Positions 7,686 through 64,000 of a stretch of 64,000 nucleotides of DNA are shown here, in pieces (the first letter of the stretch is position 1; the number at the start of each line of letters is the position of its first letter). Under the pieces are notes generated by a model, which had not been told where the DNA came from, ran no database searches, and was given only the letters and a program-made list of their open reading frames with translations. This DNA is from a virus, in IMG/VR virus record IMGVR_UViG_3300033153_015063, positions 178,597-242,596 of that record; one strand, written 5' to 3'. The translations under genes and the position numbers were made by a program.

Positions 7686-8480
7686 CTACAATCCAAGTCT
7701 CTTTCTTACGTCACCTTCAGATATTTTTCCCTTTCTTCCCTGAGTCTCGAACGGGAAAATGCCAAGAAATTCCATATTGAGTTCTTTTAATTCTTTATTT
7801 TTCTTCTCAATATCTTCTATTGTTACACCTCTAGTCTCTCGAACTCCGTTTCCTATGACTTTTAATATCTCTTTCCAGTACGTTTCATTTTTCAATAAAA
7901 CAGGGCTGTCGGTTCTGATACACTGTAGGTTCAGGTCTTCCCAGGTTGCTGGTCTCCTATATGCAAGAAGCCTTATATCACCAGCAACATTTGGTAACAT
8001 TGGGTCATCTATAGTGTCTCTCCATAGACCTAATCTTATATGGAAATATTTATCGTATGTTTGTAACTCATCTTCGCTATAAGGATTCCTCTCGACCATT
8101 GCACGACCACCATCTGTTAATGTATATATATTGTCCAGATAATCATCGCCTTTTTGTAGTGTGAGGAGACCTCTACCAACTAGACATTGAAGGGTGCCCA
8201 GTTCTCCTATCTGTCCTTCTCGATATTTTGAAATTCCACCCCTTTCATGTATCTTCATTAAAGGCACTCTCTCATCTATTGGAAGTAACCATATCTCGTC
8301 TCGTTCCCATTTTTTCTGGCACACGAGATTATCACACTCGCTCAATTCCTTCAAGAACTCATCCTCTCTCAGCTCAGGAGAATCTCCAACAGGGCCCCTG
8401 TATTCCATATTACCTGTTTCTGGATTGTACTCGTAGCGATAGCGGTTGCCTGAGCCAGGAGGGATTTCGACGATGGTCAT
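7686..8480 (-). CDS. tag-module protein T1 with winged-helix domain
   Basis: Residues 1-45 are the shared module (VEIPPGSGNRYRYEY, then YRGPVGDSPELREDEFLKEL). In this copy the linker is longer (NPETGNME). The rest contains a winged-helix-like segment (GTLQCLVGRGLLTL, then NIYTLTDGGRAMVERN), suggesting nucleic-acid binding. The ATG at 8480 is chosen because a TATA box (GTATAAAA, about 8503-8510) lies 26 nt upstream, giving a leaderless message. The function of the module is unknown. Confidence 0.7.
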   Translation of the reverse strand: MTIVEIPPGSGNRYRYEYNPETGNMEYRGPVGDSPELREDEFLKELSECDNLVCQKKWERDEIWLLPIDERVPLMKIHERGGISKYREGQIGELGTLQCLVGRGLLTLQKGDDYLDNIYTLTDGGRAMVERNPYSEDELQTYDKYFHIRLGLWRDTIDDPMLPNVAGDIRLLAYRRPATWEDLNLQCIRTDSPVLLKNETYWKEILKVIGNGVRETRGVTIEDIEKKNKELKELNMEFLGIFPFETQGRKGKISEGDVRKRLGL

Positions 8481-8580
8481 CAAGGAATAGAAGGGGTGGT
8501 GGGTATAAAAATGTGATGGTGGTACTTGTTACTTCAAACTAAGCAATTAATGATAATACAATAGCATTAGGCACAGTTAT

Positions 8581-9645
8581 TTAACTCTTTGGTCTGAACA
8601 ATCGTTGTTTGTAGTTGCGGTCAGGCTCTTCGCCACTTTTCAACCGCTTGTATTTATGCCACTCACAGAGAGAGTGTTCGATGTTGATTAGTGATAGCTC
8701 TCTCACGGGTGGATACCAGCTCTCATCTCCGGCATAGTAATCCCTTTCATTCTCATACTTATCGTCGTCCCAGTAGTGTTCCCGTTCGACGTCCAGGGAT
8801 ATCTCAATGAAAGATGGGTGTTGTGGGGTGTTGCGTAGATACTTGAAATCATGTCCCAACCTTTTGAAGTGCTTCCGTTGACTTTTACAGAGATAGGTGA
8901 TTGCCTTTACATAATCCCGTTGCCCCAGTCTGTTTTTATCTTTCCTTGAAGCGAGATATTCAAGTCCCGATTTTGCACCTGGTCCTGGATCTACGAAATC
9001 ATTTTCTGAAAACGGATTGTTGTTTGAGATAGTGAGATAGTAGTTATAGTCGATGGCGATTTCAAAGGCGAGAAATCTTGAGATAAGAGAAATATCCTGT
9101 AGTGCCTCCCATATTCTACGTATAGTCCCAGCCCCATCTATTTGTCTGTAATATAAATTAAGATGTTTTTTGAGGTCTCGTTCTATCACTTCAACGAAAA
9201 TAGTGGTTAGTTTGTTATCTGTCCCAGCTACTTTGTGGGTGTGGCTAGGCGAGAAAACCTGTTGATTGTGGTCGTTGGACCACTCAGAGACGACATCAAC
9301 CATCGCCTCCCCATCCCACTCCCCCGGGTCCTGTAAACCCATGAAAATCATGGTTTCCGGGTGGTTTATCAGGCGGTAGAGGATTATGTTGAACAGGATC
9401 TTCATCCCAACTTCATCTGGGTCATCATCGGGGTTGTTGATAGGTAAGATGATGTTCTCAATGATGAACCTGGTCCCTCGGTCAAGCTCTCGATAGACGT
9501 TGGAGAAGTGGTACTTCGAGAGGATAGGGTCCTTGGTCCAGGATGCTACTTCCTTCGGGTGTTGACGCTGATGCCATATCTCCTGACGTTCATAAACAAA
9601 GGACCAGAACTCGTCCATCATATCTGTGTGTATTTGTATAGACAC
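8581..9645 (-). CDS. thymine-hypermodification family protein (5-hmdU DNA kinase helical-domain / alpha-glutamyl-putrescinyl-thymine pyrophosphorylase type)
   Basis: The 354-residue protein shows the hallmark pattern of this family: FWSFVYERQEIWHQR, then WTKDPILSKYHFSNVYRELDRGTRF near residues 30-60, and IEHSLCEWHKYKR near the C-terminus. In phages with hypermodified thymine, such proteins act on 5-hydroxymethyl-dU in DNA or its pyrophosphorylated form. I see no P-loop kinase motif here, so this is the helical domain alone. A GTG start at 9645 fits a TATA (TTAAAAAG, about 9669-9676) 26 nt upstream. The thymidylate-synthase-fold enzyme at 30594-32453 could supply the modified nucleotide. Family assignment is from remembered motifs. 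Confidence 0.7.
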   Translation of the reverse strand: MSIQIHTDMMDEFWSFVYERQEIWHQRQHPKEVASWTKDPILSKYHFSNVYRELDRGTRFIIENIILPINNPDDDPDEVGMKILFNIILYRLINHPETMIFMGLQDPGEWDGEAMVDVVSEWSNDHNQQVFSPSHTHKVAGTDNKLTTIFVEVIERDLKKHLNLYYRQIDGAGTIRRIWEALQDISLISRFLAFEIAIDYNYYLTISNNNPFSENDFVDPGPGAKSGLEYLASRKDKNRLGQRDYVKAITYLCKSQRKHFKRLGHDFKYLRNTPQHPSFIEISLDVEREHYWDDDKYENERDYYAGDESWYPPVRELSLINIEHSLCEWHKYKRLKSGEEPDRNYKQRLFRPKS

Positions 9646-9742
9646 AGAATGTAAATGGCCGAGAGAGATTAAAAAGATAGCGGGTTGTTTTTGAGTGGCG
9701 ACTCAGACTTCGAGGTCACGAGCTCCAGACCCTCGGAGCGGG

Positions 9743-19704: not shown

Positions 19705-21717
19705 CTATCCGACCCGGGCCATGATGGTCCGTTGGATGAGTTTCAGGAACTCGGTAGGCAGGTCTTCGGTATTCTCGATACTGATGCTTCTCTTGTAGTA
19801 CTGCTTGACAGGGCTACCGTCGATGCCGATCCCAATGATGTTATCATTGGCGTACGAGCTCAGAACAGAGTGAAGGATACTTGAAGCGTCCATACTCTCG
19901 CCTTTCCACGAAGAACCCTGTGATGGCATCCCATCAGAGGTAACCAACAGGAACTTTTCTTGTTCTGGTCTGTTGTTGAGGCGGGTCATGGCGTAGTGGA
20001 TGGAAGCACCATCGTTGTTCATACAGCCCCCCGGGTCATCGACCACCTTGAACTTTCTACGTTCGTATTCGGCGTCGAATGGTTTGGGGACCCAGGTCTG
20101 AACAGTGTCACCGGCTGCCCCGAACATCTGAACCTCGAACGGGATGCCGAGTTGGTTCAGGACCTCACAGAAGAGTAGTACCGCCTCGCAAGCTTTGTTT
20201 GTCTTGTTACTACCCCACGACCCCATCGACCCCGACCGGTCCACGATGACGCTGAAAACAACATCGAGTGCTTTTCCGCCCTTCCGCTGCTTGAAGATGC
20301 GGTTGTTGAAGGTCAACGCCTTGATGAGACGCTTTCCGTTCAGTTTACCCCGGGTCTGACCACCGACCATCTTTTTACGGGACCTCTTTGCCGCTTCGAT
20401 GATGTTCTGGAGTTTGCGGGATGTCAGATTAACAAGCGGAGCGACCTTTTTTAACAGGTGCCAGTATCGTTCTGGTCTGTCGATACATTCGTGACTGACC
20501 CATTTTGTTGTACCATCTGCTATGGAAAGATTCGTGCAATCTTTTTTGGTATCTTGATCCTGCTTCCTGTCCTTTTTCTCTCTATCCACCTCTTCGTTGA
20601 TTTCTGGGAGCTCATCAGAAATATCAGATTCCAACTTTTCCTTTTTCTTCTCCATCATCTCGGTCAAGATCTCTTCGTCAGACTTTTTTCCATCCCCATC
20701 CTGCTTTTCTTTCTCGTCTTTCTTATCACCATCTTTACCAGAACCACCATCTTTCTCATCGGCGTCTTTGCCGCTTTCCTTACTGGAGCTGCCCCCCTCA
20801 TCTTCCCCCTCTCCTTTCTTTTTGTTATGAGTACCACCTTTCCCCTCTTTCCCTTCCTTATCCCGGGCTTTTTCAATTGCGTTATCTCGGGCCTGTTCGA
20901 CGGTTGTGGTGATATCAACGTCCTCGCCTTCACTGTCCCCAGGCTGCATCTGGGTAACAAAATCGGGCATATCGGTCTTTTCAGCCCGGTCTTCGGCGGA
21001 TTTCATCTTCTTTTCGATGATAGCCGCTGCTTCAATGACCTTCCAGAGACACGCCTTCGTGTTTAGCGTCATAGCCGCCTCTTGCATGATGCCAAGTGTA
21101 TCAGCATACAGCTTTTTGGCTGCGTCATTGCTGAACGGGGGCGGTTCACGATGGATGATGACCTTGATAGCCAGGGCGGCAATGAGTTGTTTCATGTAGT
21201 CTCCGCCAAGGGTAGACTCATTGGCCCATTGCCGCCGGTAGATACGCTCATGGTCAAGATAGAAATCCTCGGCTATCCCTGGAAGGCTAGTTGCCATACA
21301 GTTGTTGATTCTGTCGTCTTCGGAGATGTTCAGCAGATCCTTGACGAGAGTGAGTGCCTTCACGTTCTCGTTGTTCTGCTTGTTCCATTTGTTGACTACC
21401 TCTTTCATGCCTTTTTCCTTTACTACAGTGAAATCCGAGAATTTCACGTGGCCCACTTCATGGTAGTTGTCGGCCTTCTGTGTTGCCAGGACGTCCAATG
21501 GATCTGAGTATTCAACCCATGATCGTTCACAGATAGCAATGGTGTTGCCATCAGTATGTGACGACCCACTATCCCAGTGGTATTTGATGGCCCTGCCGGC
21601 GAGAATGTTACCGGTCTTACGGAGTCTGGTCAACCGCACGGTCTTTCCCGATGCCGATGGCAACCTCTTTGAGAACCATGCAGCTGGGAACTTTTCTGCT
21701 TGGACATGTTCTGCCAT
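19705..21717 (-). CDS. VWA-domain protein (CobT/BatA-like) partner of MoxR ATPase
   Basis: The C-terminal third of this 670-residue protein is a von Willebrand A domain with a MIDAS (DRSGSMGS, near residue 493) and a later TSDGMPSQG strand. The middle (about 290-420) is a low-complexity Lys/Glu/Asp/Gly linker. The N-terminus contains GHVKF and YLDHERIYRRQW, as in cobaltochelatase CobT-like proteins. Such proteins work with MoxR-type AAA ATPases, and one is encoded at 25090-26499 under the same type of promoter. A role in remodelling or assembling a complex is inferred. Confidence 0.8.
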   Translation of the reverse strand: MAEHVQAEKFPAAWFSKRLPSASGKTVRLTRLRKTGNILAGRAIKYHWDSGSSHTDGNTIAICERSWVEYSDPLDVLATQKADNYHEVGHVKFSDFTVVKEKGMKEVVNKWNKQNNENVKALTLVKDLLNISEDDRINNCMATSLPGIAEDFYLDHERIYRRQWANESTLGGDYMKQLIAALAIKVIIHREPPPFSNDAAKKLYADTLGIMQEAAMTLNTKACLWKVIEAAAIIEKKMKSAEDRAEKTDMPDFVTQMQPGDSEGEDVDITTTVEQARDNAIEKARDKEGKEGKGGTHNKKKGEGEDEGGSSSKESGKDADEKDGGSGKDGDKKDEKEKQDGDGKKSDEEILTEMMEKKKEKLESDISDELPEINEEVDREKKDRKQDQDTKKDCTNLSIADGTTKWVSHECIDRPERYWHLLKKVAPLVNLTSRKLQNIIEAAKRSRKKMVGGQTRGKLNGKRLIKALTFNNRIFKQRKGGKALDVVFSVIVDRSGSMGSWGSNKTNKACEAVLLFCEVLNQLGIPFEVQMFGAAGDTVQTWVPKPFDAEYERRKFKVVDDPGGCMNNDGASIHYAMTRLNNRPEQEKFLLVTSDGMPSQGSSWKGESMDASSILHSVLSSYANDNIIGIGIDGSPVKQYYKRSISIENTEDLPTEFLKLIQRTIMARVG

Positions 21718-25089: not shown

Positions 25090-26499
25090 TCAGAAATTGG
25101 TGTTAAAAACGTCCAGGATCGCTTTCTTATCATCTTCACGGAATAAATGATGGGTTGTAAAACTGTAGGCGGTGTGAACATCAAAATCGAGGCAGGCCTC
25201 GGCCCACATGATAAGGTGTCGGGTTGTGATGGTTGACCGAATGTCACTATCCCAGTTTTTGTATGCCGTGCGGATATCCTTGGCAAATCTCATCATGGCT
25301 GGATAGACAACATTGTGTTCGTCCTGGAAACCAGAGTAGTGCTTGACACACTCGATTTCATCGTCCTTTTCCAGATAGTCCATCTCCATGATGACACCGA
25401 AGCGGTCTTTGTCAGCAAAGTTGAGCTCGTGTGTTCCGCTATGTTCTCCGGTGTGGGATGGGTTCATTGTTGCGAAGAACCTGAAGTTCTGGTGAGCTCT
25501 GATTACATCATGTCCTTGTTGGGCCAGGGTGATGGAACGGGCTCCATCAAGGAGAGAACGAAGGATGAACAGGACTGTGTCCTCAGCTGCATTGATTTCG
25601 TCGAACGTAATCCAGTGCCCGAGCTTCATAGCGACGACGAGGGCACCATCGACCCATTTTGTCACAGGATTTCCACTCTCACCTTCGTCCAGGATGAATT
25701 GCCCCAGGATTTCATCTGGGGAAGTATGGCCGGACAGGTTGATACGCCAGTAGGGGATCTTTTCCATCCCAGCCAGATGCTCTATGGCCACAGATTTTCC
25801 ACAACCGGGGGGACCGACGAGAAGGGTGTTTTTGTTCTTCTTGACACCCCATCTGACGGCCCCGAGGATAGTTACGTCGATGTCAGGTAGACCATCGACC
25901 TTCAGATCCTGGTCGTAGTACTTGTCGATGGTCGGAACCATTTCAGAGAAATCTCTGAACACAACCTCCTCACCCTTCTTTTGTTCCTTCTGTGGTTTGT
26001 GAGTGGTTGTACTCTGTTGTCCGTCCTGTATCTGGAGGAGCTGCCCGAACAGGTCGGGGTCCGTGTCTTTCATCTGCACGATGAACTTTACCTTCTCCTC
26101 GAAGGGGAGTGAGCTGTAGGTGTCGAAGATGTACTTTGCCTGGGTCACTGTTGCGGACTTTCCAGGGACCCCTACGACCCCGGTACCTGCGGTATCGGCC
26201 AGTATCTCAACGGGATGCCATCCCATCGCCTTTACCAACCCCTTCGTCATGGTCCGGCTGTCTCGGAGGTCCCGGATGTTGTAGGTTCCTCCGTTTACGA
26301 GGGGGACCTCGCTTTTTACAGCAATACGAAGGCTACCTCGATAACCATTGAACCACACTATGGTATGGTTCCCGCCACGCTCCATGACCACGTCGGTCCC
26401 TTCTGGGGGGAGTTCGATTCCATCAAACTCGGAGGTCCAGTCGACCTCCTTGGATGCTCTGTCCGAACCAAGTGTTTGTGAGTTATTTTCACTCATCAT
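25090..26499 (-). CDS. MoxR/CbbQ-like AAA+ ATPase
   Basis: In this 469-residue protein the C-terminal AAA core has Walker A GPPGCGKS (229-236), Walker B WITFDEIN (296-303) and a sensor FFATMNPS. The N-terminal 180 residues carry a separate beta-rich domain (GIELPPEGTDVVME) and a Gln-rich linker. MoxR ATPases pair with VWA proteins to mature or activate a target complex; the VWA gene at 19705-21717 has the same composite promoter. The target is unknown. Confidence 0.88.
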   Translation of the reverse strand: MMSENNSQTLGSDRASKEVDWTSEFDGIELPPEGTDVVMERGGNHTIVWFNGYRGSLRIAVKSEVPLVNGGTYNIRDLRDSRTMTKGLVKAMGWHPVEILADTAGTGVVGVPGKSATVTQAKYIFDTYSSLPFEEKVKFIVQMKDTDPDLFGQLLQIQDGQQSTTTHKPQKEQKKGEEVVFRDFSEMVPTIDKYYDQDLKVDGLPDIDVTILGAVRWGVKKNKNTLLVGPPGCGKSVAIEHLAGMEKIPYWRINLSGHTSPDEILGQFILDEGESGNPVTKWVDGALVVAMKLGHWITFDEINAAEDTVLFILRSLLDGARSITLAQQGHDVIRAHQNFRFFATMNPSHTGEHSGTHELNFADKDRFGVIMEMDYLEKDDEIECVKHYSGFQDEHNVVYPAMMRFAKDIRTAYKNWDSDIRSTITTRHLIMWAEACLDFDVHTAYSFTTHHLFREDDKKAILDVFNTNF

Positions 26500-30593: not shown

Positions 30594-32453
30594 TCATTCT
30601 CCCTGAAACTCTCGTAGACATTTCTTGCCTTCCTCAGTCATCTTGAACTCGAAGCGGGCATACTCGAAGTGGTTGCCTTTCCCGGTGAATGTCCCCTCGG
30701 TAATGTTGGATGGGACGGCCATAGTCATCGCCAACCGTCCAAGGAAATCAGAGACGTAGTAAGGGTTATTGTTCTCAAAGAGCTCCTTCAGGAAGGCGGT
30801 CTGGGCCGGTGTGTTGGTGTTCTTCATCGACTCTGGACGTTCTTTCTTTTTCTCATCGAGGTGGACCTTGACTTCAGTCACTCTATCAAACTCGGAAAGT
30901 GCCTTCTTGGTCCGTTCTATCGCTTCTTTTTGACCAGGCCAGTCAGGTTCAGGTTCGTCTTTAACCATTTCTTTCTCCTCCTTCTCTACGATGTCAGATG
31001 ACTCACATTCGTTCTTGGTGATGATTGGGATCGGTTCCCACTTTGAAGTGTATTCAGTAAACAATACTTCATCCAGATTGTGTGTTTCGCAGTCCTTCAG
31101 TATCCTTTCTCTTATCCGGTGATTGGCGTTCAGTTTATCATAATCCTTTTTTTCCGTCAGACTTTCCATATAATCTTTGTCTTCAACGGACTCGTAGAGA
31201 CGTTGGGCCAACGACACCCACCATTCGTTTGTGACATAATCCAGATGGTCACAGGATAATTCGTACAATTGCATCTCTCGATACCAATCACAGGCAATGG
31301 CACGAAGCCAGAATCTCCAGTATGACCAGACTGGCTTCGTGATACCACCATAGAAAACCTTAGCTGTGGCATAGGAGAGAAGACCTGAATCGGTCCTGAT
31401 GATGGACCCTGGGAAGTCATTGACCATCGTTTTAATGATATCGTGACACCACTCCAGAACACCATTCATTTCTTCCTTGGTCATGGGTGGCATCGGTTCA
31501 GGGTCGAAGTGGTCATATATCTCAAACTGCTCAGCGATGATGTTTGGAATGATGTTCTTGTGTCTACTCATGTAGATGTGCATGTTGTTGGAGACCTGGT
31601 AGAACTTACCAACCTCAAGACCGAGACGGGATGCGACGAGTTGCTGGAAGATGGTGGGATCGAACAGGTCAAAAGGTAAACCCCAGATGGCGTCGTTGGA
31701 CCTGATGGTGCAATGCATATCAACCCGACCCTCTCGAACCTCGAACTGCCATGACATTGTGCAAGGCACGTACTGGCGGGAGTGGTCATGCATCGGGTTC
31801 CAGAAAGAGATAATGGCGTGGCGGGTTGTGGGGTCCCGCTGCAGCTTCTCGATACAGACCTCCAGTTGGTCCACCTCCCATGTCCTGACTGGTACCTCTT
31901 TACGAGATACGTGACAAATCTTGGGTTTCACTTGTTGTATCTGATGGGCGTTGTAAGAGTGGACGTTGTTCATCATCCAGCTCTCCTCGTAGTCATATTT
32001 GTGTGTCCAGTCGAGTTTGATGGGTAGGTCCCGGCCCGGCCAGTGTCTGATACGGTCACCATAGGTATAAGGACAGAGCTCTTTCTTCTCGTCTTTATCT
32101 GGTGGTTCTTGGTGATATTCGTCGTAAGGAATAGGACTCTGACGCCACTTCTCAATCAAGAGCCAGCGTTTGTGGTAGGGGTGGAAGTGATGGATGAATC
32201 CTGGGTTGAGACCGAGAAGGTAGTCCATAACCTCGACCAGGCAGACGCCGACCTGTTGACGGACGTTTGGGATGCCGCACCAGTTCTTCGTCGGATCTTC
32301 GAGAACCAGATGGAGAGAAGGGGCCTCTCGCATGGTCATTACTTTCTCCTTGTTCGGACCTTCAGGACGTTTGATTTTCAGTCCGTTGTTGGAGATGTAG
32401 TCGATGGTATCTCTTACTACTTCAGTAGAAGTATTACCGACAATACTCTTCAT
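30594..32453 (-). CDS. thymidylate-synthase-fold enzyme, Asn-to-Asp variant (predicted dCMP or dUMP hydroxymethylase/methylase)
   Basis: 619 residues. YGDRIR, DQLEVCIEKLQRDP, YVPCTMSWQF (nucleophile Cys231), TIRSNDAIWGLPFDLF and NNMHIYMSRH follow the ThyA core. The invariant PFN of thymidylate synthase reads PFD here (Asp262), the change that switches T4 gp42-type enzymes to dCMP. The residue after the nucleophile is Thr instead of His. The C-terminal 120 residues form a winged-helix-like domain (AQTAFLKELFENN), unusual for the family. The enzyme probably makes a modified deoxynucleotide for viral DNA. A TTTTTAAAG promoter gives a leaderless message. Confidence 0.8.
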   Translation of the reverse strand: MKSIVGNTSTEVVRDTIDYISNNGLKIKRPEGPNKEKVMTMREAPSLHLVLEDPTKNWCGIPNVRQQVGVCLVEVMDYLLGLNPGFIHHFHPYHKRWLLIEKWRQSPIPYDEYHQEPPDKDEKKELCPYTYGDRIRHWPGRDLPIKLDWTHKYDYEESWMMNNVHSYNAHQIQQVKPKICHVSRKEVPVRTWEVDQLEVCIEKLQRDPTTRHAIISFWNPMHDHSRQYVPCTMSWQFEVREGRVDMHCTIRSNDAIWGLPFDLFDPTIFQQLVASRLGLEVGKFYQVSNNMHIYMSRHKNIIPNIIAEQFEIYDHFDPEPMPPMTKEEMNGVLEWCHDIIKTMVNDFPGSIIRTDSGLLSYATAKVFYGGITKPVWSYWRFWLRAIACDWYREMQLYELSCDHLDYVTNEWWVSLAQRLYESVEDKDYMESLTEKKDYDKLNANHRIRERILKDCETHNLDEVLFTEYTSKWEPIPIITKNECESSDIVEKEEKEMVKDEPEPDWPGQKEAIERTKKALSEFDRVTEVKVHLDEKKKERPESMKNTNTPAQTAFLKELFENNNPYYVSDFLGRLAMTMAVPSNITEGTFTGKGNHFEYARFEFKMTEEGKKCLREFQGE

Positions 32454-32970: not shown

Positions 32971-33046
32971 GGTATCAATGTGGGATGGGCTGAGGAGTAT
33001 TTAAAAGGTTCTAACGTTTTACGTTTTGTATTTCATTACTGTCGAC

Positions 33047-35852: not shown

Positions 35853-35903
35853 CAGGGGAGGAAAGGGCTGAGGAGTATTTAAAGATTCGGAGGGAGGATC
35901 GGA

Positions 35904-37153: not shown

Positions 37154-37190
37154 TGGAGAGTGATAGGGGAGGGAGGATAAGAAGATTGTG

Positions 37191-37243
37191 GTAGGATGGT
37201 GGGATGGAGTAGGATGGTGGGATGGAGTAGGGAGGTGGGAGGA
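37191..37243. repeat. 18-bp G-rich tandem repeat
   Basis: Two perfect copies of GTAGGATGGTGGGATGGA (37191-37208, 37209-37226) and one degenerate copy (to 37243) lie between divergent genes (T5 on minus, helicase on plus). The many GG/GGG runs could form a G-quadruplex. It may be an operator, a recombination site or an origin part. Confidence 0.75.
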
Positions 37244-41174: not shown

Positions 41175-41693
41175 TTATTTCCTGGATGTACTTCTACGAC
41201 TGCCCCCTTCCCCCATCGCCTTCTGAGATTTCCGACGGAGTTCTTGAAGTGTGAGGTTACCCCAACGAAGCTCAGCCTCTTTGACACCATCATCTGTGAT
41301 ATAACCGTAGATGACACTAAAATAATAAGGACTACCAGCCTCTCTAAAACGTTCACCCTTCTGTCTGGTCAGGCCCCTCTTGTTGAGGCTATGTATGATA
41401 CGGAGATCAACGTTCGACAACCCAGGAGATTCCAATCCAGTTTCGTGTGTTCTTCCTCGTCCACCAGTTGTTTTATCCTCGGTCACCAGACGATAGTGGG
41501 CATAGAGACGGAGGAGATACTCCTCCTGACTGACGCTGAGCTCAACCTGGCCCTTTCTCTTCATCCTCTCCAGGAACTCCTCCTCACTCAGCTCAGGTGC
41601 ATTGCCGACCGGCCCCTTGTACACGGTCTTTCCTTCCTCGTAATCGTAGCGATAGCGGTTGCCTGAACCTGGAGGAATCTCTACAGTGGTCGG
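41175..41693 (-). CDS. tag-module protein T6 with no start codon
   Basis: The frame begins with the module (TTVEIPPGSGNRYRYDY, then YKGPVGNAPELSEEEFLERM), but CCG stands at 41691-41693 where other copies have ATG. No ATG, GTG or TTG lies between there and the in-frame TAA of T7 (41703-41705), only seven codons away. The first usable start (GTG 41622-41624) would cut the module in half. The C-terminus (DLRIIHSLNKRGLTRQKGE) looks like a winged helix. Either it is a dead copy or it is made by readthrough of the T7 stop or a non-standard start. Confidence 0.55.
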   Translation of the reverse strand, partial: PTTVEIPPGSGNRYRYDYEEGKTVYKGPVGNAPELSEEEFLERMKRKGQVELSVSQEEYLLRLYAHYRLVTEDKTTGGRGRTHETGLESPGLSNVDLRIIHSLNKRGLTRQKGERFREAGSPYYFSVIYGYITDDGVKEAELRWGNLTLQELRRKSQKAMGEGGSRRSTSRK

Positions 41694-41702
41694 ATGTTGT
41701 GA

Positions 41703-42440
41703 TTAGGTTATGATCCTTATCCATACGTCGTTCTTTCCAGCATATCCGATAAATTTGTATTCATTTGATTGTGCCCGATTCCTGACTGCCCTCAAACCAG
41801 TGTCGTAGAATGGTATAATATTCAATATCTCTTCTTGGCTCATATTTTCCTGGGCCCACGCCTTTGGATTATTCGATATTTCTTCTTTGAAGTCATTAAA
41901 TGCAGATGTTTGCCAACTCCACCCTATCGCTGCTTCATAGTCATCCTCATCCCATCCATCTTCCCAATCGTCAGGTGGAAAATACTCGTCTGGGTTGAAA
42001 TGTTCTTCACGTAGGTAATCCTGACCTTGCCAACCCAGAAAATCGTGCCACTTCACGTGGTCCATGAGTACCGGGAGATATCTATCTGGAACGTCTTTAA
42101 CGCTATTAAATCTATTTGAAAGGTCAATATCTACACCTTCTTTGTTGATGAAGAACTCATACTTTTCATTCCCTTTCTTGATAACACCACCACACGTTCT
42201 GGTAATGTCAACCTCCAGATCCTTTCTATCGACGCCCCAGTGACTTGCCAGTAAGTCAATCTCTGGTATGAACTCATCGTCCCAATCGCCCACACCACCA
42301 ACCATCATCTCCAGGAACTCCTCCTCTCCCAGCTCAGGTGCTTCTCCCACAGGCCCCTTGTAGATTGTAGCCTTGGTCTCAGCATCATAGACGTATTTGT
42401 ACCTGTTGCCGGACCCTGGGGGGATTTCGACGACGGTCAT
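41703..42440 (-). CDS. tag-module protein T7
   Basis: 245 residues. The module has a longer linker (VYDAETKATIYKGPVG). The remainder is acidic and Trp-rich (LREEHFNPDEYFPPDDWEDG) and unrecognised, ending NDVWIRIIT. Its stop is in frame with T6. The promoter is a 40-nt sequence identical to that of T8. Confidence 0.65.
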   Translation of the reverse strand: MTVVEIPPGSGNRYKYVYDAETKATIYKGPVGEAPELGEEEFLEMMVGGVGDWDDEFIPEIDLLASHWGVDRKDLEVDITRTCGGVIKKGNEKYEFFINKEGVDIDLSNRFNSVKDVPDRYLPVLMDHVKWHDFLGWQGQDYLREEHFNPDEYFPPDDWEDGWDEDDYEAAIGWSWQTSAFNDFKEEISNNPKAWAQENMSQEEILNIIPFYDTGLRAVRNRAQSNEYKFIGYAGKNDVWIRIIT

Positions 42441-42474
42441 TGGAGAGTGATAGGGCCGGAGAGTATAAAAAGAT
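42441..42474 (-). promoter_or_regulatory. T7 promoter, duplicate of T8 promoter
   Basis: The stretch including the start codon (42435-42474) is identical over 40 nt to 46571-46610. It contains a TATA (CTTTTTATAC on the minus strand) about 26 nt from the ATG, so the message is leaderless. Confidence 0.8.
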
Positions 42475-42485
42475 TGGTAGTTACT

Positions 42486-46201: not shown

Positions 46202-46576
46202 CTATCTACCCCTCAACTCTTTCGTCTTCCTGGCCAACGCCAACGAACCTCCCAACGTTTTAATAGCCTCACGTGGGGCGTGTTCAGGTAGCATAAGTCT
46301 ACCCTCATAAACAATCGCCACATCTGAACCATTGTAGTAGATTAATCTGGGGCAGTTTTGTTTACACTGGCATCGTGTGGCTTTTGCCACCCCTTTCTCA
46401 TCTCGACGGTCTTCCATCAACAGAAGAGTAGGTGGTTCTTGATCCATAGCCGCCATGAACTCCTCCTCCGTCAACTGAGGGCTATCCCCGACCGGCCCCT
46501 TGTAGACCGTAGATCCACCTTCGTACTCGTACCTGTATTTATTCCCTGAACCCTCAGGTATCTCTACGGTGGTCAT
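46202..46576 (-). CDS. tag-module protein T8 with Cys motif
   Basis: 124 residues. The module is at 1-46 (VEIPEGSGNKYRYEY, then YKGPVGDSPQLTEEEFMAAM). The rest is short, with TRCQCKQNCPRLIYY as a possible metal site. Part of its module DNA (GAACTCCTCCTCCGTCAACT and following, about 48 nt) matches T9 exactly. Confidence 0.65.
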   Translation of the reverse strand: MTTVEIPEGSGNKYRYEYEGGSTVYKGPVGDSPQLTEEEFMAAMDQEPPTLLLMEDRRDEKGVAKATRCQCKQNCPRLIYYNGSDVAIVYEGRLMLPEHAPREAIKTLGGSLALARKTKELRGR

Positions 46577-46610
46577 TGGAGAGTGATAGGGCCGGAGAGT
46601 ATAAAAAGAT
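46577..46610 (-). promoter_or_regulatory. T8 promoter, duplicate of T7 promoter
   Basis: Identical to the T7 promoter over 40 nt including the start codon, while the coding sequences diverge right after it. This points to promoter swapping or gene conversion between copies. Confidence 0.8.
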
Positions 46611-46619
46611 GGTGATTAG

Positions 46620-51292: not shown

Positions 51293-53734
51293 CTATACCA
51301 GGATGTATTTACCAACATCTGGAGACTCTACTGTACCCTTTTCGATGAGAACCTGGATGATTCGATAGAGCTCTGATGTTCCTATCTGACACATCAGAGT
51401 CAACTGGTCGAATGGCACATACCCGTCCGCATCAACGGGACACTTGTGGATAGCTTCGACTACCATATTAAGATCCTCAGTGGTAGTCGAGATTTCATCT
51501 TCTTTCATAAAGGATCGAAGGTCGTTGAGTATCTTCTTGTAGACCTCCCTTCCGAGTGTGGTAAGTTTGTAGACGCCTCCTGATGGCCGAGTAATCAATT
51601 CCTCCCTGATGAGAACATTGATGTTCGTGAAGATAGTGTTTTCACTCTCACTAAATACTTTACATAAATCACTGAAACCTCTTCCGTTATGCCTCGCAAT
51701 CTCAGAATAAAGGCGATATTTGAGCTTTGCCTTTTTCTTCATGTTCTTGACAGCGATATACATCGAAGAGACGGTTTGACGGAACTGACCTTCCTCGATA
51801 AGCATAAGGTCGAACTCCCATCTTCTTTCGTACTCATCAAGAAGTTTTTCCAGTTGTCTGGCATGACGTTCTTTGATGTATATCTGTTGATCTGCATCCA
51901 ACTTGAAATCAATGAAAGCAATACCTTTAATCATTTTACGGAGATGGACCAGAAGGTCATTGGAGTATGGTTGTATATAGGACATCTCAAATCTGTTCTT
52001 TCTGGATACATATATTTGATTTATAATATCCTGCACACCATCTTCCCATATATAGTTTTTTTCGCTGTTCAATCCATCACAAAATATCTTTAACATCTTA
52101 AAATCTTCTGGACTGAGACCAATAACATCTCCATCCATGTACTTGTTATAGGCTGAGACCATCATAGTTGATGGGACGTCATCCTGTCCGAATGGCACAA
52201 CCAGGGTGAAGCGTTTCAGGTCAAAATAAGTAAAAGCCCCGGGCATTCCACTTTTCCATGCTGCATAGCGATGTGGGTAGTTGGAGAATTCCTCTTCGAG
52301 ATTCCAAGTTACTCCATACCTCGTAACAAAATCGACGGTCATGGTCTGTCCGGTGGTTCCTGCCCCACCGATAATCATTTTACCTTGAGGTAGTGCTTCC
52401 CGAAGGATACCGATAATTTCTTTGTTTGCCTCGGTCACACTGTCTATGAATAGTCGTCCGTGTATAGCTCTGAGGGCCTTACCCTTCAGCAGTTTCCACT
52501 CTCCACTTTCACTATCCCGCTTATGTTCATAGAACACCGTCCGTTTGATGTTCTCGCCCTGAAGGACAACATCACAATCCGCAGCCTTGTTGTCACTCAC
52601 ACTCTCATACCTTGAGATAAATGACAGACCAGCGTTGAAGATATCACTCTTTCCGACTCTCGAATCCCCGATGAAAGCTATGAACATTGGGTCGTCCGGG
52701 GCTGAGAAGCACCAGATGAGAAATAACTCTTTCTCGAAGTCACGACCACCAAGCCAGGGAGCCACAGTGTTCATCATCAACTCCAGGTTGTCGTCATAGG
52801 TTCCATTCAACCTATGACGGAAATTTGTCATCATTTCTTCTGTAATAACAGTATAACTGAAGCGTTTGTCTGTCTCGAACAACTCCATACACTCGAACAC
52901 CTTTCTTCCGGTATTGAACTGAGTGTTTTTAACCATCAGCTTGAGTTTGAGTTTGAGTTTGTTAGCAGATTCTATCTTTTGTAATAACTCTCGTTGATGT
53001 TTTTTGTCTTTACAAAATATGTAGCATGGGTATGCTTGTTCTACCTCATGTTCCCATGTCTCCATGTTGTTGTCGATATCTTTTATCGACAGTTTGATGA
53101 CGTCCTGATGTGTTGATGGTTCAATACGAATCTTCTTCTTTTTACAGACAGGGCACACCAGTTGTAATTCTTTGACAAGACGTATCTCCTCGCACTTCTT
53201 GATGCCACCCACCATTTTCAAGGAAATTTCTCTATCAATTTTTACGATGTCCTCCCAGCAACCTTTCTCACACCATGCATAAACGTGAGATGGGATAGTA
53301 TTGATTGTAAGTTCTGTCCATGTAACCTCTACTACCTGTGGGTTATCATCATGTGGTAATATGTCAATAAGTCTACCATACTTTATCGGGTTGGTATGAT
53401 ATTCACAATCATCAACGTGGAGAGCTGCGGCCTCTTTTGTAATAAGATCGCACTTGAAAACGCCGCTGCCAAGTTTATCTCGAATCTTGAAGATATCATC
53501 CTCGTTCTGGAGACCTTGACGGCGGGCCAAACGCCGGGCCATCGAGTCAAATATCTTACCATCCATTGTATCATATATCGACCTGATGCAGGCTAGAGCC
53601 ACTTTACAGGCATTGATGGGGTTCCCCCGAAAGCATGTCTCTGGGGCACGTTGATTGAACAGATACTTGATGCATGGTGGTAGATTGTCGATAGCTGCCC
53701 TGGGTGTGTTGGGATAATCAATTTTTTCAAACAT
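51293..53734 (-). CDS. divergent MCM-like replicative helicase
   Basis: 813 residues. The N-terminal OB region has a zinc site (WCEKGCW, CPVCKKKK). The AAA core has Walker A GDSRVGKS (near 355), matching MCM GDPxxxKS. HGRLFIDSV then ILREALPQG (near 430) aligns with the MCM Walker B and EAMEQ region, but Ser replaces the Glu of DE. ARRQGLQNEDD-type N-terminal and winged-helix C-terminal domains (LYRIIQVLIEKGTV) complete it. It probably unwinds DNA at the fork; the Walker B change questions its ATPase cycle. Confidence 0.75.
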   Translation of the reverse strand: MFEKIDYPNTPRAAIDNLPPCIKYLFNQRAPETCFRGNPINACKVALACIRSIYDTMDGKIFDSMARRLARRQGLQNEDDIFKIRDKLGSGVFKCDLITKEAAALHVDDCEYHTNPIKYGRLIDILPHDDNPQVVEVTWTELTINTIPSHVYAWCEKGCWEDIVKIDREISLKMVGGIKKCEEIRLVKELQLVCPVCKKKKIRIEPSTHQDVIKLSIKDIDNNMETWEHEVEQAYPCYIFCKDKKHQRELLQKIESANKLKLKLKLMVKNTQFNTGRKVFECMELFETDKRFSYTVITEEMMTNFRHRLNGTYDDNLELMMNTVAPWLGGRDFEKELFLIWCFSAPDDPMFIAFIGDSRVGKSDIFNAGLSFISRYESVSDNKAADCDVVLQGENIKRTVFYEHKRDSESGEWKLLKGKALRAIHGRLFIDSVTEANKEIIGILREALPQGKMIIGGAGTTGQTMTVDFVTRYGVTWNLEEEFSNYPHRYAAWKSGMPGAFTYFDLKRFTLVVPFGQDDVPSTMMVSAYNKYMDGDVIGLSPEDFKMLKIFCDGLNSEKNYIWEDGVQDIINQIYVSRKNRFEMSYIQPYSNDLLVHLRKMIKGIAFIDFKLDADQQIYIKERHARQLEKLLDEYERRWEFDLMLIEEGQFRQTVSSMYIAVKNMKKKAKLKYRLYSEIARHNGRGFSDLCKVFSESENTIFTNINVLIREELITRPSGGVYKLTTLGREVYKKILNDLRSFMKEDEISTTTEDLNMVVEAIHKCPVDADGYVPFDQLTLMCQIGTSELYRIIQVLIEKGTVESPDVGKYILV

Positions 53735-54831: not shown

Positions 54832-55350
54832 ATGGCTGTCAACACCAGTGAGAAAAAAACTGTTGGTAGCGACGGTAATGTCACTCTCCAGACGCCATTT
54901 CTTGCAATGATACTAGCTCTGGGCGTCTCGTTGTTGGTTATTATCATCTACACGAGTGGGCTTTTCAAGTACGCTTACACACTGTTTGTGGTGTATATGA
55001 TATATACCTCGATAGAGCGTCAAACAGAACCGATGGAAGTAAAAAAGCAGGAAAACCCTGGGTTGGTGAGGAAAGACCTTGGGATTGACGAGAACCATAT
55101 TATTTTTGGCGTCGATAAAATCGGTGGCATCAAAAAAGTTGATGATGTTGACGTTGATTCTGTAGAGTTGTTGATTGCTGAGCCAGATAACGCCAAAGAA
55201 ACGGACGATGATGAGTTGTGTTGGGTTATCTTTCGAGAGAGAGAGGGAAAGATAACAGAACATATCATCGTCCGTTCATTTATACTTGGTAGGATTATGA
55301 TTTATTCGTGGGGTGAAAACGATGGGCTCATTGAAGGAAGAGTTAGATAA
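54832..55350 (+). CDS. membrane protein at the head of a translocation operon
   Basis: 172 residues from the ATG at 54832, which is 28 nt downstream of a TATA (TCTATAAAAG) and therefore leaderless. Two transmembrane segments lie in residues 22-65 (LAMILALGVSLLVIIIYTSG, AYTLFVVYMIYTSI). A soluble domain follows. It overlaps the ATPase gene by about 29 nt. Confidence 0.6.
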   Translation: MAVNTSEKKTVGSDGNVTLQTPFLAMILALGVSLLVIIIYTSGLFKYAYTLFVVYMIYTSIERQTEPMEVKKQENPGLVRKDLGIDENHIIFGVDKIGGIKKVDDVDVDSVELLIAEPDNAKETDDDELCWVIFREREGKITEHIIVRSFILGRIMIYSWGENDGLIEGRVR

Positions 55351-57001
55351 ACGAGATAAAATAAAAGTGAAAAACGAAGATTTCTGTGCTTTTAAGACAC
55401 TAATACGTCTTGGTAAAAATATAAAAAGGATGGACCGCAGTCTCCCACGTCCAGATACCACTTTCAAACAAATGATGAGAATAAAAGATATTAAACCTAT
55501 AGTAGTTGAATCCACCGATGAAAATGCAAAATTTAATCTTGGATATGTGGTATATGCTACGGACCCGAAAGAGACCAGAGTCTATAAAAAAATTGGGTAT
55601 GCCTCAAAGAAAAGTGGTTATCCAATTGAGGATATGATGAGTGTTCCACAACGAGACCTTATAGGAGTGACTGCCAATCCACTCTATCAGAACACCAATG
55701 GTATCTTCATCGGTGGAACTGGGTCAGCCAAAACTGTCAGGGCGAAACGAGAGGTCGAGAACCGCTATTTGAGAGGTAGACGCATCATCGTAGTAGACCC
55801 CAAAGGTGAGTGGGAACATGGCTTACCGTATCCCCAGGAAACTTCCAGAGAAATCCAGATGTTGAAGTGGAATGGCGAGGAACCAAGAGGTTTTCCTGTT
55901 CGTATCATCCCACCTCGATTCGATGATCGTATCGTTCTACACGATTCTGATATACTTTCGGCGGTTGCATCTTTACAAACAACCAACCAGAAGGCACAAG
56001 TGGCCATATTGTTGGGTGTTTTCAAATCACAAGTGGTTCCGACTCTTGACCACGAACCCCGTATCGGAGATTTTGTCGAGTTCTGCACGACATGGCAACA
56101 AAAACAGATGGATGGTGAGGGATTCGGAGACGAGGAAGAGGAAGAGGAATATGACGAAAAAGGAAAAAAGAAGAAAAAGAAGAAGAAGAAAGGTGTGAGT
56201 CTACCCCAGATTCAACGTGGACTGGAGAAATTGAAGGAACGTTATGACCGGGGTATGTTCGCACCAGTATTGGAAGAGATGTTGACCATGCCTCAACGTG
56301 AGATTGGTGTGGTCTCGGCCGGGACAGTCTTCAGAGGCGATCTGTATGGCGTTCTCATCGAACACTGGACCGGTCTGTTCTTCCGATATCTAATGCAGAA
56401 CACGTGCCCAAAGTGTTATGAGACATATACCAGTCGAGACCTCAACGTAGGTACGAAAATCTGTACAGAATGTGGCGGTCATCATAGCTCCGGTATCTGC
56501 CAGAAATGTAAATGCCGAGAGTTTAAAGTCAGGGAACCAAGCGATGAGTGTGTTCATTGTGCCGATGGTACCAAGGTGGTCAGAGTCATACCAACTGACA
56601 TTGTCCTTGAAGAGGTGCAGGAGGGAACCAGCAAGTCAGATACTCTGGTCAAAGAACTGGCACGTATCATGTCGATAAACAGGGTCATGGGTGGTGGTTG
56701 TGGTGTCATAATGATTACACAGTCAGCAACCGTGTTAAAGTCGTCTGGTGGTGGTCAGAACCCCATTTACACTAACCTGGGGACAGTCTCCTATGCCGGG
56801 GCCATGTCCGGGCGTCAGGATATTGCACCACTCAGAGAGGGTTTTGGAATTGCTTATGGTACAGAGAACACTGACGACGATAAAGTTCAAATCATCAGGT
56901 GTTCAGATACGAGTCTTGGCACGAAAATCTGCAACATCATGCCGCCGAGGTCCTATCACCCGATGTTTTCAGGATTCAATCCAAATAGGTTAAATGTGTA
57001 G
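55322..57001 (+). CDS. VirD4/HerA-type DNA-translocating ATPase with zinc insert
   Basis: 559 residues from the ATG at 55322, preceded by GGGGTG. Walker A GGTGSAKT (about 139-146) and RRIIVVDPKGEWEHGLPY after it fit TraG/VirD4 coupling proteins and HerA/FtsK-like pumps. A multi-Cys zinc region (CPKCYETY, CTECGGHH, CQKCKC, CVHCADG) is inserted before a VLEEVQEG strand and IMITQSA sensor. The Lys/Glu-rich EEEEEYDEKGKKKKKKK linker is flexible. It probably moves DNA through the membrane proteins of this operon, in conjugation-like transfer or virion packaging. Confidence 0.75.
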   Translation: MGSLKEELDKRDKIKVKNEDFCAFKTLIRLGKNIKRMDRSLPRPDTTFKQMMRIKDIKPIVVESTDENAKFNLGYVVYATDPKETRVYKKIGYASKKSGYPIEDMMSVPQRDLIGVTANPLYQNTNGIFIGGTGSAKTVRAKREVENRYLRGRRIIVVDPKGEWEHGLPYPQETSREIQMLKWNGEEPRGFPVRIIPPRFDDRIVLHDSDILSAVASLQTTNQKAQVAILLGVFKSQVVPTLDHEPRIGDFVEFCTTWQQKQMDGEGFGDEEEEEEYDEKGKKKKKKKKKGVSLPQIQRGLEKLKERYDRGMFAPVLEEMLTMPQREIGVVSAGTVFRGDLYGVLIEHWTGLFFRYLMQNTCPKCYETYTSRDLNVGTKICTECGGHHSSGICQKCKCREFKVREPSDECVHCADGTKVVRVIPTDIVLEEVQEGTSKSDTLVKELARIMSINRVMGGGCGVIMITQSATVLKSSGGGQNPIYTNLGTVSYAGAMSGRQDIAPLREGFGIAYGTENTDDDKVQIIRCSDTSLGTKICNIMPPRSYHPMFSGFNPNRLNV

Positions 57002-61069: not shown

Positions 61070-61675
61070 CTAGTAATCCATGTGGAGTTCCATTGCTATA
61101 ACCCTTTTTTCCACGGGCTTTCTCCCAAGACCTTTGATGTCGCCCCAGAACAACTCACTCACACCACGCCATATCTGGTAATCCTCTTTGGGGTAGTATG
61201 CATCTCGGCTGAGAGGATTATATTCTTCACGTTCGGCACCCCAGAACTCATATTCGTGGAGATTGGTCAGTGCTTTGAACTCGCTATTGGTCATTTTCTT
61301 CGGGACCCATACCCACTTGTGGACCTTCTCACAGCCCATTTTCCCCTTATCCGCTATAAACTTCATCTCTCGTTTCTCATAGGGACCAATACTCCACCTG
61401 TCTCTGAAGGCTTCAACATATTTTGCTGTATGTTTACCTTCGGTGGACGTATCATCAAAAGGGGCGACGAATACGAATACTTCATCCTCTATCGGTTCCC
61501 TGACCATCTCCCGCCCCTCAAACTCTCCCCTCGATGCCACCTTCATCCTCTCCAGGAACTCCTCCTCCGTCAACTGAGGGCTATCCCCGACCGGCCCCTT
61601 GTAAACCGTAGCTCCCTCTTCATATTCATAGCGGTATCTATTCCCTGAACCCTCAGGTATCTCTACAGTGGTCAT
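61070..61675 (-). CDS. tag-module protein T9
   Basis: 201 residues from the ATG at 61675, which is 26 nt from a GTATATAAAG box. An upstream Met would be outside the transcript. The module is complete. The body (FVFVAPFDDTSTEGKHTAKY, then WRGVSELFWGDIKGLG) is unrecognised. Part of the module DNA matches T8. Confidence 0.65.
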   Translation of the reverse strand: MTTVEIPEGSGNRYRYEYEEGATVYKGPVGDSPQLTEEEFLERMKVASRGEFEGREMVREPIEDEVFVFVAPFDDTSTEGKHTAKYVEAFRDRWSIGPYEKREMKFIADKGKMGCEKVHKWVWVPKKMTNSEFKALTNLHEYEFWGAEREEYNPLSRDAYYPKEDYQIWRGVSELFWGDIKGLGRKPVEKRVIAMELHMDY

Positions 61676-61726
61676 CAAGGAATACAATGGGTGTTGAGTA
61701 TATAAAGAGTTCTAACCTCCCCTCCC

Positions 61727-61769
61727 TTTTACGCTTTTTACGGTTGTTTGGCCTGAAAGTATATAAAGA
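61727..61769 (+). promoter_or_regulatory. composite promoter P7
   Basis: TTTTACGCTTTTTACGGTTG, then CTGAAAGTATATAAAGACCA on the plus strand. The TATA is about 38 nt before the ATG at 61803, and an AGGTGATG site lies in the leader. Back to back with the T9 promoter. Confidence 0.8.
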
Positions 61770-62354: not shown

Positions 62355-62376
62355 GCCCAACCAACCACTACCCCAA

Positions 62377-62411
62377 ACCCTTTATTTTATCCCTTCTCTT
62401 TTCTTTATTGT
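62377..62411 (+). terminator. T-rich terminator
   Basis: CCTTTATTTTATCCC and CTTCTCTTTTCTTTATT follow the P7 gene and precede the convergent methyltransferase gene. Confidence 0.5.
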
Positions 62412-62417
62412 GCTAAC

Positions 62418-63161
62418 CTAGAATCTCATGGCACCTAATCGCTGTTCTGCCACTTCACAATATTCCTTGGACATGTCTATTCCGATGAACCGACGCCCAA
62501 GCCTGCTGGCGACGGCTGTGGTCGTTCCTGCCCCGTTAAAGGGGTCTAAAACAGTGTCTCCAGGCCATGAAAAGAGTTTGATGAGGCGATATACCAGTTC
62601 CTCGGGAAACATCGCTGGGTGCCCAAAATCCCGCATCTTTCTCTCCGGGGCGATGGACCACTTAGCCGTTGTCCATTGCTTGAACTCGTCGCCATCCAGG
62701 TCGCTTTCGATCCCATCTGGTCTCTTCTTTGTGTAGGTATCTTTACAGAACACTTCGATGAACTCCCAGGTGTATTTGAGATATGGGTTGCTCGGGGATT
62801 TCCAGCTCCCCCAGGCCGTGTACTTACAGTTGTAGTTGTTCTTCTCCCACAGTATCTCGCCCTTCCATAGGAATCCAAGGTCGGTAAGGTCTTTTGTGAT
62901 GATGTGATGGGTTGGTTGATAGACTTTCCAGTTGGGTTGGATGACGATACACAACCGACCACCTGGTTTCAAAACTCCCCTTATCTTTTGCCAGATACCA
63001 TACAACCACTCGAAGTACTGGTCCCAATCCTGGACATCATCGTGGGTATCGTATTCTATCCCGTAGTTGTAAGGTGGGCTGGTCACTACCAGGTCAATAG
63101 AGTTTTTACCCAGAGTAGATATCTCATCGTAGGCATCTCCACAGATGATGGAATCTTCCAT
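62418..63161 (-). CDS. beta-class DNA methyltransferase
   Basis: 247 residues from the ATG at 63161, which overlaps the upstream TGA. Motif IV VVTSPPYNYGI is near 28, KPGGRLCIVIQP follows, and motif I VLDPFNGAGTTTAVA is near 210 with RRFIGIDMS. This is a complete N4-cytosine or N6-adenine methyltransferase of ordinary size. It ends GAMRF. The upstream gene is coupled. Confidence 0.88.
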   Translation of the reverse strand: MEDSIICGDAYDEISTLGKNSIDLVVTSPPYNYGIEYDTHDDVQDWDQYFEWLYGIWQKIRGVLKPGGRLCIVIQPNWKVYQPTHHIITKDLTDLGFLWKGEILWEKNNYNCKYTAWGSWKSPSNPYLKYTWEFIEVFCKDTYTKKRPDGIESDLDGDEFKQWTTAKWSIAPERKMRDFGHPAMFPEELVYRLIKLFSWPGDTVLDPFNGAGTTTAVASRLGRRFIGIDMSKEYCEVAEQRLGAMRF

Positions 63162-63442
63162 CAAAACCGCAGGCCACCGAATATCCGAGAACTCCAGATC
63201 CTGAGTGGCCGGCCGTGATTGTGGTTGACCCGGGTAGACCGCTTGAACTCATCGGTCTGGGTGCAGATGCCATCTTTTTTTGCTTCCATCATCACAGGAC
63301 CCATGATCCTTGGTTCTCTGGGAGTTTCGAGAGAAGACTGTTCTATCTTCTCCCATACATCATCAGTCGTGAACTTCCGTTTGGCCAACGCAATCAGACG
63401 CACGAAGTGGCCAACCTCATCTTTCCAGGTCTTTTCGTCCAT
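63161..63442 (-). CDS. small winged-helix-like protein
   Basis: 93 residues from the ATG at 63442, which is 26 nt from a TTTAAAAAG box and so leaderless. A longer frame starts upstream of the transcript. FTTDDVWEKIEQS, then PRIMGPVMMEAKKDGICTQT and HGRPLRIWSSRIF, matches a small phage HTH-like protein type. It is coupled to the methyltransferase and may be its regulator or specificity partner. Confidence 0.6.
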   Translation of the reverse strand: MDEKTWKDEVGHFVRLIALAKRKFTTDDVWEKIEQSSLETPREPRIMGPVMMEAKKDGICTQTDEFKRSTRVNHNHGRPLRIWSSRIFGGLRF

Positions 63443-63473
63443 GATAGGAAAACACCGGTCGAGTTTAAAAAGA

Positions 63474-64000
63474 TTAATCATCGAACTCTCTTCTTACATC
63501 CTTTGCGTGTTCTATCACGTCTCCAACACTGTCGCCATCTTCCCAACTGACACCCCTACTCCACTTAATGTCACCATCTCCGTCATAGTAGTAGACAACG
63601 ACAGATTCCTCATAGTGTTCGAAGCCGTACTCACCCTTCCCGGTCCAATATGAACAAACTTCCTGTGTCATCTTCGTCTTTCTGGTCACATGAGCTTTTT
63701 TGATGACGTCTTCGATGGTGTCGCCCTCCTTCCAGTAGGCAACTCCACCCCACGAGAAATTCTTTCCTGAACGACCATAGGATATGACAGTGACTCTCTC
63801 CCCTTTATGTTCGAACGTATATGTGATGCCTTTCAATTTGATTTTATCCAGGTCTCTTGACGTCCTCTCATCCACCACCTTCATAATCTCCAGGAACTCC
63901 TCCTCCGAAAGCTCAGGTGCTTCTCCCACAGGCCCCTTGTATTGTGTCTTTCCTTCCTCGTACTCGTACCTGTATCTGTTACCGGACCCTGGTGGAATCT
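63474..64000 (-). CDS. tag-module protein T10, start beyond window
   Basis: About 175 residues visible. The first few residues of the module lie past the right edge. The body holds two related blocks: GITYTFEHKGERVTVISYG, then SWGGVAYWKEGDTIEDVIKK; and EYGFEHYEESVVVYYYDG, then KWSRGVSWEDGDSVGDVIEH. This indicates an internal duplication of about 50 residues. The module DNA is identical to T4 over 113 nt. Confidence 0.65.
   Translation of the reverse strand, partial: IPPGSGNRYRYEYEEGKTQYKGPVGEAPELSEEEFLEIMKVVDERTSRDLDKIKLKGITYTFEHKGERVTVISYGRSGKNFSWGGVAYWKEGDTIEDVIKKAHVTRKTKMTQEVCSYWTGKGEYGFEHYEESVVVYYYDGDGDIKWSRGVSWEDGDSVGDVIEHAKDVRREFDD
63888..64000. repeat. module copy identical to 36513-36625
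   Basis: This 113-nt stretch of the T10 module is identical to T4. It reaches the window edge, so the shared segment may be longer. Confidence 0.9.

Follow-up and report, generated by a model that had tools for sequence, protein, structure and literature searches.

A conserved, transplantable terminal module on about 42 genes of a virus-like element, possibly an address tag for accessory proteins

The DNA analysed here, called the window throughout, is a stretch of 64,000 nucleotides comprising positions 178,597-242,596, the last 64 kb, of the 242,596-bp IMG/VR virus record IMGVR_UViG_3300033153_015063 (GC 45.6%), and it raises the question of why ten genes with otherwise different products should share one protein module of about 45 residues. 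A sequence-only reading, made by a model from the letters of the window, had described these genes as ten minus-strand genes joined by a common N-terminus and had proposed that the module acts as an address tag. We found the module to be a peptide under selection that has been attached as a unit to unrelated proteins. The answer we tentatively prefer, at a confidence somewhat short of an even chance, is that it is a folded docking domain serving as a transplantable address tag, which would direct accessory proteins to a single place, most plausibly a particle.

The module and its copies

All ten genes were recovered together with their shared module, and in a consensus search of one genome the ten modules gave E-values from 1e-24 to 2e-17, which exclude chance and low complexity as the origin of the matches. 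Across the whole 242.6-kb record 43 tag matches were obtained, 39 of them with E<=1.4e-14; since T10 (see below) and a partial match at the other record end are probably one gene, these correspond to about 42 tagged genes, a family approximately fourfold larger than the earlier count of ten. Copies are numbered (#) by the order of matches along the record. Thirty-five genes carry a canonical N-terminal tag, three a divergent one (#15, #20 and #21), one a C-terminal tag (#5) and one an internal tag (#7), and in two (#9 and #29) the reading frame of the tag differs from that of the protein after it. No orphan tag fragments were found outside the tagged loci. The ten copies in the window, with their upstream regions, are as follows:

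7686-8480, minus strand: tagged gene T1, tag at 8346-8480 (IPPGSGNRYRYEYNPETGNMEYRGPVG)
8481-8521, minus strand: TATA promoter and leader of T1, common to copy #25 (ACATTTTTATACCC...CCTTCTATTCCTTG)
32491-32970, minus strand: tagged gene T2, tag at 32836-32970
32971-33015, minus strand: promoter and leader of T2 (CCTTTTAAATACTCC...CATCCCACATTGATACC), identical to copy #2 from -45
35112-35852, minus strand: tagged gene T3, tag at 35718-35852
35853-35893, minus strand: TATA promoter and leader of T3 (TCTTTAAATACTCC)
35904-36647, minus strand: tagged gene T4, without promoter, IPPG core from 36623
36644-37153, minus strand: tagged gene T5, tag at 37019-37153
37154-37194, minus strand: promoter-like leader of T5 (AATCTTCTTATCCTCC), common to copy #24
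41175-41690, minus strand: tagged gene T6, without promoter or canonical start before the tag, tag at 41556-41690
41703-42440, minus strand: tagged gene T7, tag at 42306-42440
42441-42481, minus strand: TATA promoter and leader of T7 (CTTTTTATACTC...TATCACTCTCCA)
46202-46576, minus strand: tagged gene T8, tag at 46442-46576
46577-46617, minus strand: promoter and leader of T8, with the words of T7 but before another tag variant
61070-61675, minus strand: tagged gene T9, tag at 61541-61675
61676-61716, minus strand: promoter and leader of T9 (GAACTCTTTATATACTC...CATTGTATTCCTTG), words as in copies #8, #16 and #18
63474-63998, minus strand: tagged gene T10, 5' end truncated where the contig stops

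The module is thus present in every one of the ten, although the N-terminus is not uniform: T4 lacks the MT(T/V)VE start and opens with MNRRQSNKIPPGSG from a GTG overlapping the T5 stop codon. Between the preceding stop codon and the T6 tag (window 41556-41720) there is no ATG, GTG or TTG, and copy #32 has CTG in place of the ATG found in most copies. The start of T10 lies at the opposite end of the record and is reached through an exact 64-nt overlap inside the tag (window 63937-64000 = L001:1-64); the overlap points either to a circular record or to a break at this repeat. A 12-nt TATA-box word of T9, AGTATATAAAGA (61697-61708), recurs 61 nt further upstream (61758-61769).

Among the divergent copies, #15 (L004:4835-5656, a 273-aa protein) and #20 (L005:18933-20000, a protein with an HExxH motif and a weak Pfam match, E=0.005) form a subfamily, EIPKGSGNxYxY...EYxG, which is possibly an older form of the label. 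Two further relatives lie below threshold: IPPGSPNWYIYG near the N-terminus of the protein encoded at L006:1069-1686, and VIEFPYGSGNRYTLG at the C-terminus of a zinc-ribbon protein (L006:14138-14395), the latter adjoining zinc ribbons as in copy #7.

AlphaFold2, run on the tag with 38 natural rows, gave strands at residues 2-4, 14-19 and 24-30 and a helix at 39-47 (mean pLDDT 79.5, pTM 0.53), and in a full-length model of T5 residues 1-30 had block means of 86-92, while the payload, having no relatives in the alignment, was poorly modelled. With moderate confidence, the tag may therefore be described as a small folded domain of about 45 residues, made of three predicted strands and a helix. 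It is acidic, with a mean net charge of -3.6. That no named family covers the module, as had been suggested, agrees with our searches, in which there was no Pfam match, no significant structural match to PDB or BFVD by Foldseek and no match in other collections. Residues 3-17 resemble the N-terminal hairpin of inorganic pyrophosphatase (PDB E about 0.02), and most of the top Thermoplasmata matches are pyrophosphatases; an origin from Family I inorganic pyrophosphatase is a weak lead, the likeness covering 15-20 residues of a 170-residue enzyme and a single family.

The hairpin-plus-helix layout and this faint likeness would also suit a tag that is itself the functional domain, for example a nucleic-acid-binding or enzyme-inhibiting hairpin for which the payloads act as modifiers. 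We regard this as the least probable of the explanations considered: the acidity of the tag argues against nucleic-acid binding and, together with the lack of a structural match, disfavours an arm-type DNA-binding hairpin; the pyrophosphatase likeness is too short; and some 40 different C-termini would be needless for one shared activity.

No other record among IMG/VR, the GTDB representatives and phage and plasmid records was found to contain the tag, in a search by 8-residue patterns that may miss divergent copies and that excluded the window's own record, and perhaps others very close to it. Nor did such a search find it in 34 virus records that have a family B DNA polymerase (PolB) relative in common, or in 400 genomes belonging to the same class as a Thermoplasmata metagenome-assembled genome.

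Selection, exchange and attachment

In the core of the module, from IPPGSGN to KGPVG, the comparison of 34 copies gave pS 0.65 and pN 0.10, a ratio of 0.16 over 22 codons that include the strictly conserved G9, N12, Y14, Y16, Y18 and GPV, while the helix part is under looser constraint (pN/pS 0.59). Linkage between sites is high only at very short range, with an r2 of 0.24 within 3 nt and of about 0.03 beyond 16 nt, the background being reached within about 20 nt, a decay that none of 2000 permutations matched. The Rmin of 27 corresponds to at least 27 exchange events in 108 nt of aligned coding sequence, a figure that recurrent synonymous mutation can inflate. The low pN/pS and the short-range linkage together indicate that selection keeps the peptide while the DNA beneath it is reshuffled in very short tracts. 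Conservation of the module at the level of the peptide, amid mosaic DNA, is thereby borne out, and a selfish DNA repeat whose peptide is not under selection is ruled out by the same ratio, set against heavy synonymous divergence.

Several features show that the module is attached as a unit and can be transplanted, as the sequence-only reading had supposed: its N-terminal, internal and C-terminal positions, the mosaic sharing among copies, a paralog without a tag, and long exact copies. An exact match of 114 nt, beginning at the ATG, links tags #9 and #29, whose flanks are unrelated on both sides; in other pairs of copies exact identity sets in 35-45 nt upstream of the ATG and thus takes in the promoter. 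The Ham1 alignment in one tagged protein opens at residue 48, directly past the tag and near the start of the profile. A natural control is provided by the tandem paralogs at L009:2263-2730 and L009:2734-3255, which are 38% identical, one being tagged (#32) and the other untagged; their homology runs from residue 53 of the tagged protein, just past the tag, and from residue 7 of the untagged one.

Promoter and leader are often copied along with the tag, and most copies have them in common. Promoters in the element look archaeal, with a TATA box about 30 nt upstream of the start codon, and the promoter-leader words were nearly restricted to sites before tags, in 10/11, 4/5, 3/3, 5/5, 5/5, 4/4 and 4/4 cases. 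Inverted repeats, as marks of a transposable unit, were absent beside T7 and T8, and upstream of T9 one distant pair was found. Such sharing, with exact identity reaching back to -35 to -45, and the impression that the tagged genes are captured orphans would suit a repeated unit that is mainly a mobile expression cassette of promoter, leader and start codon, in which the peptide is a by-product or an enhancer of translation or solubility. This explanation is considered improbable, since purifying selection on the peptide extends over the whole core, with strictly conserved residues far past the first codons, and since the peptide is also found in T4, T6, #3, #5 and #7, which lack the shared promoter, in #5 at the C-terminus.

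Cargo and destination

The C-termini of the ten window genes are unrelated by BLASTP and phmmer, as had been claimed, and an all-against-all comparison of the payloads in the whole record gave two homologous pairs only, #19/#22 and #6/#23, so that, at the level of sequence, the module is not the invariant segment of a single domain family whose C-termini are related. The individual assignments made earlier fared unevenly. The internal duplication in the T10 payload holds (E=2e-7); a winged helix has weak support in T4 (AspA, E=0.014), but in T1 the match was not significant (E=0.23); and a GNAT domain in T5 was not confirmed by searches, the model of its payload being of low confidence. Confident Pfam matches among in-frame payloads were Ham1/ITPase (1.8e-22), RelA/SpoT (7e-18) and DUF5661 (5e-11).

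As a class, the tagged proteins are soluble and no longer than 385 aa: of 39, none exceeds 400 aa and none contains a membrane-like segment, whereas each property is seen in 39 of 193 other open reading frames (Fisher p=6e-4 each), in a comparison set that includes some spurious frames. The replication and nucleotide genes recognised in the record encode PolB, a clamp loader, DNA gyrase, a topoisomerase, a class II ribonucleotide reductase and thymidylate synthase, and none of these carries the tag, which fits an accessory, host-directed cargo.

Under the reading that we favour, one partner made by the element would bind the tag and gather the tagged proteins at a single destination. The particle would be the likeliest such place, the cargo being delivered with the genome into the next host cell, where it might act on the nucleotide pool, ppGpp, transcription and defence, in the manner of phage T4 and its capsid-targeting sequences, and short-tract recombination among copies would keep the tags alike and let the element label newly acquired genes. 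A docking domain is preferred to a cleaved leader because the tag also occurs at the C-terminus and internally. The particle is favoured on several grounds: the cargo consists of small, soluble, accessory proteins, partly aimed at host metabolism; the replication proteins are untagged; and in T4 and P1 a short N-terminal sequence is enough to bring foreign proteins into heads (PMC9026906, PMC9024508).

As the main rival we consider a label for sorting or assembly inside the cell, which would direct proteins to a replication compartment, to the membrane or to a MoxR AAA/VWA machine, with no packaging into particles; we judge it unlikely, though less so than the other explanations weighed above. 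The element does encode a MoxR-type AAA and a CobT-type VWA protein (window 25090-26499 and 19705-21717), as well as a second MoxR-like protein, judged from its sequence (L008:5684-6745); the AAA ATPase of the Photorhabdus virulence cassette recognises an N-terminal payload peptide (PMC11495950); and neither capsid nor terminase was recognised in the record. However, import into a replication compartment would not be expected to leave every recognised gene of replication and nucleotide metabolism untagged, and MoxR/VWA proteins are common, with no link between those of the element and the tag.

Several observations weigh against an address tag for the particle. The terminase large subunit was not matched by PF03237, the one terminase model tried, whose controls were positive; no capsid gene was recognised in the record; and no prohead protease appeared in the family scans made, none of which was a dedicated search for it. 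With PF03237 giving no terminase and no capsid gene recognised, the record can be called only virus-like and may or may not make virions, and its status as a virus derives from the IMG/VR classification and a replication set of phage type. Compared with the capsid-targeting sequence (CTS) of T4, the tag is longer; it is predicted to be folded and also lies internally or C-terminally, so that it does not belong to the cleaved kind. Moreover, tags #9 (L003:11824-11937, record 51824-51937) and #29 (L007:4542-4655, record 124542-124655) are shifted by +1 or -2 relative to the following protein. The protein following #9 is a CCA-adding enzyme (PDB match 2e-37); the other frame alone contains its nucleotidyltransferase motif, and from the stop codon ahead of that motif up to the motif itself no ATG, GTG or TTG occurs. 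These breaks reflect either programmed frameshifting or recent non-functional joins. The earlier interpretation is supported in part: it stands as regards a conserved, transplantable module on unrelated proteins, to which we add that a promoter often comes with it, whereas virion loading, export and handling by the MoxR/VWA machine are inferences, as is the binding of the tag by a partner.

A fuller version of the favoured reading, in which an archaeal virus loads some 40 effector enzymes and regulators into its particles by means of one folded docking domain, spread as a promoter-plus-tag cassette and held uniform by very short-tract recombination, is somewhat more doubtful than the address tag itself. 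We know of no prokaryotic virus for which an effector-delivery arsenal of such size has been described. If the module is an address label, it singles out the proteins that form one class for an uncultured archaeal virus, about 42 genes, nearly all of them without a function by annotation, and that class is probably sent out to act on the host. The idea of capsid targeting would then be extended from a few T4 proteins to a systematic, transplantable archaeal system, and the tag might be reused for loading proteins into archaeal particles. In addition, recombination in very short tracts is recorded naturally in the fine mosaic of DNA under a conserved peptide.

Other genes of the record encode a 5-hmdU DNA kinase, DNA methyltransferases, a ParA-like ATPase and a HerA-like ATPase. 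The last of these (window 55313-57001), HerA/FtsK-like and with zinc motifs, matched a terminase PHROG only at E=0.003, had no match among phage records and is a candidate motor for packaging or transferring DNA. Large membrane-anchored proteins containing PKD and thrombospondin-3 repeats occur in clusters (L004:5673-17397, L005:8471-14729 and L008:10443-16505) and are candidates for surface or structural components of the element. Contractile-injection genes (sheath, tube or baseplate) were not among the families listed in PHROGs and Pfam scans of the larger open reading frames, many structural-looking proteins being unannotated. Because the element encodes a 5-hmdU DNA kinase helical domain (3.7e-48) and a thymidylate-synthase-like protein (window 8581-9645 and 30594-32453), it probably carries hypermodified thymidine. 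PolB is closest to that of HF2-like haloarchaeal tailed viruses, at about 30% identity, while the protein pI of 5.8 is not haloarchaeal; the ribonucleotide reductase scan gave a mixture of bacteria and a few Thermoplasmata, and further viral scans with single proteins gave no relatives. A TROVE (Ro60-like) protein (L009:12573-14225) has a relative of 27% identity in IMG/VR record 3300021446_000176, which also contains the best-scoring PolB relative, yet lacks the tag.

Comparison with known systems

The closest parallel in T4 is the CTS of IPI-III and Alt, a propeptide of 10-19 residues that is removed by gp21 and found on few proteins (PMC9026906); like the tag, it is a short common N-terminal sequence on divergent soluble proteins that form an accessory, host-directed cargo (PMC9026906), and T4 internal proteins counter host defences (PMC9391042). 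The tag shares with it the placement of one N-terminal sequence on divergent proteins but departs from its size and its strictly N-terminal position, being about 45 aa long, predicted to be folded, C-terminal in #5 and internal in #7, and it differs further in occurring on about 42 genes with archaeal-type promoters and in having no known sequence relation to the CTS. In P1, an N-terminal stretch of DarB of no more than 30 residues sends a reporter to the capsid (PMC9024508); this is a single protein, however, with no family of tagged payloads and no known sequence relation to the tag. Extracellular contractile injection systems such as the Photorhabdus virulence cassette likewise have an N-terminal label on diverse payloads and loading into a particle aided by an AAA ATPase, Pvc15 (PMC11495950), whereas the tag described here is a predicted folded domain and its link to an AAA protein is only a guess.

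A significant profile or structure match that would place the tag in a known Pfam or PDB family was not obtained, and homology to pyrophosphatase does not extend past the first 15-20 residues. In T4-type phages, mobile regulatory cassettes (PeSL) repeat a promoter before many accessory genes and are thought to aid gene shuffling by recombination. The element likewise has a promoter repeated before many accessory genes, but regulatory DNA is not all that is common to the copies, since the coding core has a pN/pS of 0.16: its cassette also encodes a conserved protein domain kept by selection. The Borg elements of Methanoperedens are also large, archaeal and of uncertain virus status, with multicopy genes and repeat-driven protein evolution (PMC12660748, PMC9879509); the present element differs in its size of 242 kb, its GC content of 45.6%, its possible circularity and its one dispersed terminal module.

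In conclusion, the tag would work like a capsid-targeting or effector-loading tag, yet by its length and position it stands outside those families, and there is a substantial chance that the scale of the system, together with a folded and transplantable tag, makes it something new.

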